Assembly (NCBI RefSeq): GCF_900110705.1
Contig: NZ_FOEJ01000001.1
Location: 565,501-629,500 of the forward strand
Direction: 5' to 3'
Length of the DNA: 64,000 bases
DNA from: Loktanella sp. DSM 29012
GTDB taxonomy: Bacteria > Pseudomonadota > Alphaproteobacteria > Rhodobacterales > Rhodobacteraceae
Below the pieces are notes generated by a model that made no database searches, was not told the origin of the DNA, and saw only the letters and a list, made by a program, of their open reading frames with translations. Positions 54,980 through 60,655 of the stretch are shown one piece after another (position 1 is the stretch's first letter; every line of letters starts with the position of its first letter). A program made the translations under genes and the position numbers.

Positions 54980-55012
54980 TTGTGATCACAGTAATATCGC
55001 GTGTGATCACAA
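54980..55012 (-). promoter_or_regulatory. paired TGTGATCACA palindromes upstream of sucC
   Basis: Two perfect 10-bp palindromes TGTGATCACA at 54981-54990 and 55002-55011, centres exactly 21 bp apart (two helical turns), 95 to 127 bases before the sucC start. The same arrangement occurs before sdhC. It is likely a double operator for an unidentified dimeric regulator. Confidence 0.65.
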
Positions 55013-55049
55013 GACGCATTTTGTTCACGGTGATCCGTCCTGAAACGAC

Positions 55050-55075
55050 AAAGGGCGCCCTACAGGGCGCCCTTT
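55050..55075 (-). terminator. intrinsic terminator after mdh
   Basis: A perfect 11-bp stem AAAGGGCGCCC / GGGCGCCCTTT with a 4-base loop, 24 bases beyond the mdh stop on the minus strand and followed by TTTGTCGTTTC. It separates mdh from the suc promoter. The stem is symmetrical, so it could work in both directions. Confidence 0.85.
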
Positions 55076-55098
55076 CTCAACTGTGCATTCGTCCGTGA

Positions 55099-56061
55099 TC
55101 AGGCGAGCGAAGGATCGATTTCCTTGCAGGCGGACACGAGGCCTTTCACCGCGTCGACCGATTTGTCGAACATCGCCTGCTCGTCCTTGTTCATCTTGAT
55201 TTCCACCACACGCTCGACGCCGCCGGCACCGATCACGGTCGGCACGCCGACGTAGAACCCGTCGAGGCCGTAGGCACCATCCACATGCGCCGCACAGGGC
55301 AGAACGCGCTTTTGGTCCTTGAGGAACGATTCGGCCATTTCGATGGCGGATGTGGCGGGCGCGTAGAACGCGGAACCGGTTTTCAGCAGGCCGACGATTT
55401 CCGCGCCGCCGTCACGGGTGCGCTGCACGATGGCGTCCAGCTTGTCCTGGGTGGTCCAGCCCATGTCGACCAGATCGGGCAGGGGAATGCCGGCAACGGT
55501 GGAATAGCGGGTCAGCGGCACCATCGTGTCGCCGTGGCCACCCAGCACGAATGCAGTCACATCGCGCATCGAGACCTTGAATTCCTCGGCGAGGAAGTGG
55601 CGAAAGCGGGCGCTGTCCAGCACACCGGCCATGCCGCAGACCTTGTTGTGGGGCAGGCCGCTGAATTCGCGCAGCGCCCAGACCATCGCATCCAGCGGGT
55701 TGGTGATGCAGATGACGAATGCGTCGGGCGCGTGTTCCTTGATGCCTTCGCCCACGGCCTTCATGACCTTGAGGTTGATGCCCAGCAGGTCGTCGCGGCT
55801 CATGCCCGGCTTGCGCGGTACGCCGGCGGTGACGATGCAGACATCTGCGCCAGCGATATCGGCATAATCATTTGTGCCCTTGAAGGAACCGTCGAATTTG
55901 CCCGAGGGACCGGATTCGGCGATATCCAGCGCCTTGCCCTGCGGTGCGCCCTCGGCGATGTCGAACAGGACGACGTCGCCCAGTTCCTTAACCGCTGCGA
56001 GGTGGGCGAGTGTGCCGCCGATCTGTCCGGCGCCGATCAGTGCAATCTTGGGTCTGGCCAT
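55099..56061 (-). CDS. mdh: malate dehydrogenase
   Basis: A 320-residue MDH of the LDH-like type. It has [11 protein letters not shown] (6-16), [14 protein letters not shown] with the substrate-specific Arg residues, NPLDAMVW, and [10 protein letters not shown] with the active His near 176. It oxidises malate to oxaloacetate with NAD. ATG 56061 has AGGAACC upstream; the longer frame adds 22 residues without family support. It has its own terminator before the suc operon. Confidence 0.97.
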
Positions 56062-56197
56062 GGAATGGTTCCTGTCTAGCAAGTTAAACTTGGGCGTTGG
56101 GTTAGTCCTTTGATGGTCAGCCTGCAAGTGCGACGGTCATGGTCAATGCGTGGTTTCGTCGCTAACAGTTTGAAAATTCCCTATGTGAAAGCGCTTC

Positions 56198-58759: not shown

Positions 58760-59316
58760 CATTACTTATTCTGGGCCTGCTGCTGTGGGTTGCGGCGCAT
58801 ACGTGGAAACGGATCAGCCCGGGAACACGGGCAGATATGGGCGACCGTGGGCGTCTGTTTGCGGCCCTGGCGATCATCGCATCCGTCGTCTTGATGGTGA
58901 TCGGCTACCGGGCTGCCGACGGCGCGGTCTATTGGGGGCGGGCTGGCTGGTCCACCGGCGTGAACAACCTGCTGATGCTGGTGGCATTCTATATCTATGC
59001 AGTCGGCGCGCCCAAACCCGGCAAGCCGCGGGTCTGGCTGGGTCGCAAGATCCGCCATCCGCAGCTGATCGGTTTTTCGATCTGGGCTGTGGCGCATCTG
59101 CTGGTGAACGGTGATGTGCCGTCATTCGTGTTGTTCGGCGGGTTGCTGGTCTGGGCGCTGGCCGAAATCGCTCTGATCAACAGGGCCGAACCGGAATGGA
59201 TCCCGCCACCGCACCGCAGCGCGCGCAAGGAATTCATTCCCATCGTCGCCGCCATCGTCATCTATGCGATCGTTGCGGCAATCCACATCCTGCTTGGCTA
59301 CAACCCGTTCGGATAA
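58756..59316 (+). CDS. NnrU-family membrane protein
   Basis: A 186-residue membrane protein with about five spans. The KIRHPQLIGFSIWAVAHLLVNGD block (here about 95-117) is the family signature. NnrU was named for a gene near nitrite and nitric-oxide reductase genes, but its action is unknown. No denitrification gene lies in the window. It overlaps mcl2 by 4 bases and sits three bases before the DUF1737 gene, so it belongs to a central-carbon operon. Confidence 0.87.
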   Translation: MTLLILGLLLWVAAHTWKRISPGTRADMGDRGRLFAALAIIASVVLMVIGYRAADGAVYWGRAGWSTGVNNLLMLVAFYIYAVGAPKPGKPRVWLGRKIRHPQLIGFSIWAVAHLLVNGDVPSFVLFGGLLVWALAEIALINRAEPEWIPPPHRSARKEFIPIVAAIVIYAIVAAIHILLGYNPFG

Positions 59317-59319
59317 GAC

Positions 59320-59526
59320 ATGACAAAACTTTATCGCCTGCTGACCGAAGACGACACATCCGCGTTCTGCCACAAGGTGTCCGATGCCCTGTCCAAGGGA
59401 TGGGAACTATACGGAACGCCGACCTATGCCTTTGATCATGCCAACGGCGTGATGCGCTGTGGCCAGGCCGTGACCAAGGACATCCCCGCCGATTACGACC
59501 CCGACATGAAGCTGGGCCAGCAATGA
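59320..59526 (+). CDS. DUF1737 protein
   Basis: A 68-residue cytoplasmic protein. KLYRLLTEDDTSAFCHKVSDAL (here about 3-24) and GWELYGTP (about 27-34) are typical for DUF1737, a small family of unknown role. It overlaps mch by 4 bases. Its fixed place beside mch in relatives, as I recall, hints at a link to that pathway, but no function is known. Confidence 0.85.
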   Translation: MTKLYRLLTEDDTSAFCHKVSDALSKGWELYGTPTYAFDHANGVMRCGQAVTKDIPADYDPDMKLGQQ

Positions 59527-60548
59527 CCAAAACCAACGCCGGGCGGTTTTTCGAGGATTATCGCGTGGGTGACGTCATCACCCATGCGGTGCCGCGCACC
59601 ATCAAGATGGGTGAACGCGCGTTGTACCACGCGCTTTATCCCGCCCGGCACGCGCTGCATTCGGCCGATACATTCGCGCAATCCTGCGGTCTGCCGTTCA
59701 GCCCGCTGGACGATCTGGTCACCTTTCACACCGTCTTTGGCAAGACGGTGCCGGATGTGTCGCTGAATGCGGTTGCCAACCTCGGTTATGCCGAAGGTCG
59801 CTGGCTGACACCGCTCTGGCCCGGTGACACGATCACTGCGACGTCAGAGGTCATCGGGGTCAAGCAAAACTCCAACGGCAAAAGCGGCGTCGTCTGGGTC
59901 CGCACCACGGGGCGCAATCAGCATGGCGAGGACCTGCTATCCTACGTCCGCTGGGTCATGGTGCGCAAACGCGGTGACGGGCCTGCGCCGGAAACCGTGA
60001 TCCCGAAACTGACGGACGCTGTGGCTGCCGATGAACTGGTGATCCCGGCCGGACTGGATTTCAGCGCCTATGATTTTGATCTGGCAGGCGAGCCGCATCG
60101 CCTGCGCGATTATGCGATAGGCGAGGTGATCGACCACGTCGATGGTGTCACGATCGAAGAGGCCGAACACATGCTGGCCACGCGCCTGTGGCAGAACACG
60201 GCCAAGGTGCATTTCGACGCCACCAACCGCCCGGATGGGAAGCGTCTGATCTATGGTGGGCATGTCATCAGCCTGGCCCGTGCGCTGTCGTTCAATGGAT
60301 TGGCCAACGCGCAGATGATCGTCGCGCTGAACGGTGGTGCCCATGCGAACCCTTGCTTTGCCGGCGATACCGTTCGTGCGTGGTCCGAGGTGCTGGACGT
60401 TGCCGACACTGCGGCCCCCGGTGTCGGGGCCATCCGCCTGCGTCTGGTCGCCACAAAAGGTGCGGCAGGTGCGTTGCGCGATGCCGAGGGCAAATACCTG
60501 ACCGACGTCTTGCTGGATCTGGATTACTGGGCGCTGATGCCCGTCTGA
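59523..60548 (+). CDS. mch: mesaconyl-CoA hydratase
   Basis: A 341-residue double hot-dog (MaoC) protein, the size of known Mch (about 343). The N-terminal domain starts RFFEDYRVGDVITHAVPRTI (here about 8-27). The C-terminal domain has FDLAGEPHRLRDYAIGEVIDH and the NAKVHFDATNRPD-like stretch near 220. It interconverts mesaconyl-C1-CoA and beta-methylmalyl-CoA in the ethylmalonyl-CoA pathway for acetyl-CoA assimilation. Together with the upstream mcl2-type gene it points to that pathway; ccr, ecm and mcd are not in the window. Confidence 0.9.
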   Translation: MTKTNAGRFFEDYRVGDVITHAVPRTIKMGERALYHALYPARHALHSADTFAQSCGLPFSPLDDLVTFHTVFGKTVPDVSLNAVANLGYAEGRWLTPLWPGDTITATSEVIGVKQNSNGKSGVVWVRTTGRNQHGEDLLSYVRWVMVRKRGDGPAPETVIPKLTDAVAADELVIPAGLDFSAYDFDLAGEPHRLRDYAIGEVIDHVDGVTIEEAEHMLATRLWQNTAKVHFDATNRPDGKRLIYGGHVISLARALSFNGLANAQMIVALNGGAHANPCFAGDTVRAWSEVLDVADTAAPGVGAIRLRLVATKGAAGALRDAEGKYLTDVLLDLDYWALMPV

Positions 60549-60622
60549 CTGACCGGGATCACGGGCGACTCGGTTGTCTGAAATTGTTCCGTTTCCGCAA
60601 GGTCACATCAACGCAGGATCTG

Positions 60623-60655
60623 TTGTGTTCACGCTTTTAAATTTTGTGATCACGA
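60623..60655 (+). promoter_or_regulatory. paired TGTGNTCACG palindromes upstream of sdhC
   Basis: TGTGTTCACG (60624-60633) and TGTGATCACG (60645-60654), centres exactly 21 bp apart. They lie 140 to 170 bases before sdhC. The same motif and spacing are seen before sucC, which is strong internal evidence for a common regulator. Confidence 0.62.

Follow-up and report, generated by a model that had tools for sequence, protein, structure and literature searches.

Phased operator pairs upstream of sucC and sdhC in Loktanella sp. DSM 29012 and their probable regulator, the GntR-type protein AkgR

Gene content and operator pairs of the window

The window analyzed here, a stretch of 64,000 nucleotides from Loktanella sp. 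DSM 29012, contains a suc gene cluster with lpd, an sdh gene cluster, and a gene for a GntR-type protein (Table 1). The first genes of the two clusters, sucC and sdhC, are each preceded by a pair of 10-bp operator sequences. One operator among the four reads GTGTTCAC, and the center-to-center distance is 21 bp in both pairs.

Table 1. Genes and sequence elements of the window. Positions are counted from its first nucleotide.
Feature	Position	Strand	Remark
akgR candidate	43911-44558	+	GntR HTH and FCD domain, 215 aa
lpd	44744-46132	-	convergent with the akgR candidate
sucB	47246-48490	-
sucA	48487-51480	-	start codon per ORF listing; inner start possible
sucD	51519-52406	-
sucC	53692-54885	-	leads the suc cluster, downstream of the first pair
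Operator palindrome TGTGATCACA, proximal to sucC	54981-54990	.	window sequence, conserved in relatives
Operator palindrome TGTGATCACA, distal to sucC	55002-55011	.	window sequence, conserved in relatives
Operator TGTGTTCACG, distal to sdhC	60624-60633	+	one center base off the palindrome
Operator TGTGATCACG, proximal to sdhC	60645-60654	+	conserved in relatives
Candidate -35 box GTGACT of the sdhC promoter	60712-60717	+	offset of 67 bp from the proximal operator start
sdhC	60794-61177	+	first gene behind the second pair
sdhA	61575-63380	+
sdhB	63721-64000	+	truncated at the end of the window; complete in L034, 4221-5000

The positions and the 21-bp phasing of these pairs had been described in an original prediction made from the window sequence, and both were confirmed at frequencies far above chance. 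The motif TGTGWTCACR has six strand-matches in the 64-kb window (1.01 expected), and the pair TGTGNTCAC-N12-TGTGNTCAC has three strand-matches at two places, compared with none in 100 shuffles. In the whole genome of 3.42 Mb, this pair pattern is found only at the same two places, before sucC and sdhC (zero matches for the reversed-pattern control), such that the earlier remark that there is no further such pair is true genome-wide. Two more proposals from that source, namely two dimers phased on one helix face and an even-spaced GntR-type site, are supported. By comparison, the TCAC-N(1-2)-GTGA element described near each pair is present in the letters, but it is neither conserved nor more frequent than expected by chance. 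Its form TCACNGTGA has two matches in the window (1.13 expected), and TCAC-N(1-2)-GTGA occurs in only one of 70 operator regions of relatives (0.36 expected). This accessory element was dropped as chance-level in both the window and the relatives.

Elsewhere in the window, positions 57012-57674 (minus strand) encode a protein that looks secretory and contains several acidic stretches of the GETMDAAGETMDE type, as judged by eye.

Conservation, spacing, and promoter-like boxes in related genomes

The original prediction had suggested scanning the genome and its relatives with the double motif. Apart from the two places in this genome, the scan found the pair pattern in 117 of the 149 family genomes sampled (nearly one per genus, own genome included), and in none for the reversed control. 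With TGTGATCAC required twice at a spacing of 10-40 bp, 125 of the 149 genomes match (control 0). Among the places listed, 81 of 97 have a spacing of 21 bp and nine have 20 bp, whereas the remaining seven have 12, 15, 18, 24, 27, 31, and 31 bp (counted by eye). Accordingly, 20 bp makes up nine of the 16 departures from 21 bp among these places. The 11 bases between the paired sites are hardly conserved, while the sites and their spacing are kept. In 13 relatives (10 chosen for having pairs, plus three named species related to R. sphaeroides), a pair is found before sucC and sdhC wherever the stretch analyzed includes that promoter, and the suc and sdh pairs are approximately 5-10 kb apart in many of the relatives' stretches. 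The pair is not found at the chance rate and is kept before suc and sdh in relatives, contrary to the two outcomes that the original prediction had named as speaking against it.

Beyond the family, a class-wide draw was searched with the stricter pair YGTGATCAC-N11/12-YGTGATCACR, which matched all four same-family genomes and one of the 285 others (G298; site L350, G298:C189:991-1021). Because the reversed control also matched one of the 289 genomes (G225, five strand-matches), this lone out-of-family site is at background level. At the sensitivity of this search, the paired device looks confined to the family.

Downstream of the sdhC pair, the promoter candidate in the window combines the GTGACT box with a weak -10. 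In a first set of 30 sdhC regions (window included), the GTGAC box is mostly 66-68 bp from the proximal operator start, with other boxes at 45, 56, 77, 77, 79, and 89 bp. The box position was fixed as a prediction and then tested on 40 further genomes. In this second set, 36 genomes have the pair and 31 of these have a GTGAC box by the search rule, of which 29 are at 66-69 bp, one at 58 bp, and one at 46 bp (G088, which has a second box at 69 bp). Over both sets, the distance between the proximal sdhC operator and a box is 65-70 bp for 52 of the 66 regions; six regions have no box in range (G032 because the stretch reads N), and one box is at 124 bp. TA starts 22 bases after the box G in 49 of 60 boxes, which gives a GTGAC-N16/17-TA promoter shape. 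A literature search found no description of such a box 65-70 bp from the proximal sdhC operator. If GTGACT marks the sdhC promoter, the operator centers would be at about -97 and -118, which resembles the position of a class I activator. The seven other boxes (45, 56, 58, 77, 77, 79, and 89 bp) are on average 1.0 bp off whole 10.5-bp turns (p 0.0005). Displacement of these non-standard boxes by whole helical turns is suggestive only, because all but one of the seven belong to the set from which the hypothesis arose and the boxes at 39 bp (G066) and 124 bp were excluded.

For sucC, 23 of 38 regions have TT[TAG] at +56 relative to the proximal operator, an enrichment over the mean of 2.4 per offset. 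This position is roughly one turn closer to the operator than that of the sdhC box. No clear -10 accompanies it, and a sucC promoter assignment from this element is not claimed. Two other elements were noted in this region. The sequence AAATGTCG, at 54973-54980 (minus strand) of the window and also in many relatives, directly follows the proximal sucC operator, and may extend this operator or belong to another factor. In several relatives, the distal sucC operator is preceded, at a distance of approximately 25-35 bp, by a GAATCA-type element, which was seen in the sucC upstream regions of G026, G031, G038, G049, G057, and G110 (L304, L305, L308, L312, L316, and L256).

The akgR candidate and its co-occurrence with the pairs

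The akgR candidate is convergent with lpd and approximately 10 kb from the suc operator. Its product has a GntR HTH domain at residues 15-66 (PF00392; 40.1 bits, cut-off 27) and an FCD domain at residues 85-204 (PF07729; 66.7 bits, cut-off 24.3), and thus belongs to the FCD (FadR) subfamily of the GntR family. An alignment of 17 orthologues has a mean column identity of 82%, with N136, H140, H183, and D205 invariant. These residues presumably form the metal site of the FCD domain, in which Asp would take the place of the usual His. The window protein is 73% identical to the product of the GntR gene just downstream of sdhB in Cereibacter johrii (L207), and the same identity was found for G051. 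This orthologue is just downstream of and convergent with sdhB in C. johrii, Luteovulum azotoformans (L208), and G051 (L215), whereas a likely orthologue in C. ovatus is on another contig, and those of G011 and G074 are beside lpd as in the window.

RSP_0981 of R. sphaeroides is presumably AkgR. Given that sdh corresponds to RSP_0974-6 in this species, RSP_0981 is expected just downstream of sdhB, and the proposed orthology of the candidate is based on this gene position and on family membership. In PMC4344238, RSP_0981 is assigned to the GntR family and predicted to regulate sucCD, sdh, and 2-oxoglutarate dehydrogenase. Another study names GTGATCAC among the sites bound by AkgR and describes this protein as an activator (PMC6365646). 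The same core, GTGATCAC, precedes the suc and sdh genes in the genome studied here. The original prediction had held that one regulator is common to suc and sdh and that it cannot be named. The former view is supported by pairs that occur only before sucC and sdhC genome-wide. The latter no longer holds, as AkgR, encoded at 43911-44558 of the same window, is most likely the regulator of both pairs, based on motif, gene position, and family.

Each of the 149 genomes has at least one GntR protein that matches the window protein at E <= 0.001. Orthologues were defined by a best E < 1e-55 and absence by values > 1e-47; this cut was set by us, and nothing falls between. On this basis, an akgR orthologue is present in 133 of the 149 genomes and absent in 16 (by eye). 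Both akgR and the pair are found in 122 genomes, akgR only in 11, the pair only in three, and neither in 13 (Fisher p 6.6e-10, with kinship ignored). Among the sucC regions, a pair with 20- or 21-bp spacing and a score of 17 or more out of 20 is present in all 34 with akgR, compared with three of the 15 without akgR; the other 12 score 14 or less, and a score of 15 was reached once in 990 shuffles of the analyzed regions. Of these 34 akgR-positive regions, seven are from genomes without an exact pair and 27 are from low-numbered genomes in which both genes were found, taken regardless of pairs. Among the sdhC regions, pairs scoring at least 17 are found with akgR in 27 of 36 (first set) and 36 of 40 (second set), and without akgR in two of 14. 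Judging from these counts in akgR-positive genomes, sucC is the strictest predicted target and sdhC a looser one; the distal sdhC site of the window is also off the palindrome. Some genomes that lack akgR (e.g., G048, with an SdhA 87% identical to that of the window) are at least as close as many that have it, which suggests loss of akgR.

Outside the pairs, 16 TGTGATCAC and 21 TGTGTTCAC single sites were counted by eye in the own genome. The surroundings of all 16 TGTGATCAC sites, 16 of the 21 TGTGTTCAC sites, and one TGTGGTCAC site were examined, with the L057 site missed because its stretch is cut by the contig end. Among the 31 located sites, 30 are inside an ORF under a longest-ORF rule (80 codons, six frames). 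Because this permissive rule is weak in a GC-rich genome, some single sites may still be targets. The exception is L059 (G000:C20:254109-257109), where TGTGAACACA, near position 1500, is in the gap before a 443-aa glutamine synthetase-like ORF (by eye) and is a possible single-site target. In G011, a lone TGTGATCACA is located just upstream of lpd (L210, G011:C1, 7492-7501), which raises the possibility that AkgR controls additional genes from single sites in some relatives.

Proposed regulation, alternatives, and comparison with known systems

The pairs, their spacing and conservation, the association with akgR, and the constant distance to the sdhC promoter-like box are direct readings of the genomes compared. 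We consider it highly probable that the four palindromes are AkgR operators, at which paired dimers activate suc and sdh as one module. The product of 43911-44558 would bind all four 10-bp palindromes, with two dimers per pair on one DNA face and two helical turns apart, and these dimers may cooperate. The pairs would sit upstream of the suc and sdh promoters, where AkgR would help RNA polymerase start. The predicted effect is activation, by analogy with the AkgR of R. sphaeroides, for which this role has been reported. The TCA-cycle section from 2-oxoglutarate to fumarate would thereby be expressed as one module, and the signal may be a TCA-cycle carboxylate.

Alternatively, another regulator may bind the pairs, either a member of another family or any of the remaining four FCD-type GntR proteins, with akgR being merely widespread. 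The own genome does encode five FCD-type proteins, AkgR binding of the pairs is a prediction, and three genomes (G019, G096, and G114) have the pair with no detected akgR. These three are drafts of 210, 50, and 320 contigs (91, 77, and 100% complete, respectively), in which akgR may be unassembled, although this is only a guess for G114. However, the sucC pair is present in every akgR-positive genome analyzed and absent in 12 of the 15 akgR-negative ones, G054 has only a 40% relative of the AkgR protein and no pair, and the AkgR motif in the available part of PMC6365646 is identical. We therefore regard a different regulator as improbable. A CRP-type protein, also raised in the original prediction, is far less probable still and was rejected on geometry. 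The half-sites TGTGA/TCACA do resemble those of CRP, but they abut, whereas the CRP operator is TGTGA-N6-TCACA, with a 6-bp spacer. Moreover, the pair tracks akgR, and according to PMC4344238 no CRP analogue is predicted for R. sphaeroides.

A different question is whether the palindromes act singly, with dimers that do not touch and a 21-bp spacing that is inherited or set by the promoter distance. The spacing by itself is no proof of cooperation, and suc and sdh pairs that are only 5-10 kb apart in many stretches could share an ancestor. Against this, the intervening bases show hardly any conservation while the sites and spacing are kept, and where the spacing is not 21 bp, it is mostly 20 bp. 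We regard independent action as rather unlikely. For AkgR as the regulator, a broader reading is that a cooperative two-dimer unit, in helical phase with the promoter, switches the 2-oxoglutarate-to-fumarate segment as a module across the family. This reading is tentative, and we give it slightly less than an even chance.

Taken together, an anonymous motif now has a probable, named regulator and a simple, testable geometry, and one bacterial family links two TCA-cycle gene clusters by the same paired operator. The spacing rule, with two turns from site to site and, it appears, a whole number of turns to the sdhC promoter, bears on how FCD-type GntR proteins activate transcription. Among solved structures, the best profile match of the AkgR alignment is McbR (4p9f; E 2e-24), the targets of which differ from those of AkgR. 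PS417_07240 of Pseudomonas simiae (deoxyribonate catabolism) is likewise GntR-like, is reported to be 32% identical to AkgR, and recognizes the palindrome GTGATCAC, but it has other target genes and a single palindrome is described in the available part of PMC6365646. A literature search found no description of the two-turn tandem architecture across the family, although the AkgR paper (mBio 2015, 02461-14) may have one; the tandem spacing is also not described in the available parts of PMC4344238, PMC6365646, PMC5507952, PMC11323563, PMC7471390, PMC4419725, and PMC8557541. The closest system is AkgR (RSP_0981) of R. sphaeroides. Unlike that system, the akgR gene of the window is beside lpd rather than sdhB, and the 21-bp tandem arrangement is not mentioned in the available parts of PMC4344238 and PMC6365646. 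The two are alike in GntR family and in predicted targets (sucCD, sdh, and 2-oxoglutarate dehydrogenase; PMC4344238, available part), in the motif GTGATCAC and the activator role (PMC6365646, available part), and in gene neighborhood when close relatives are considered. The system described here is most probably a known regulon in another genome, with a tandem architecture that is less known.
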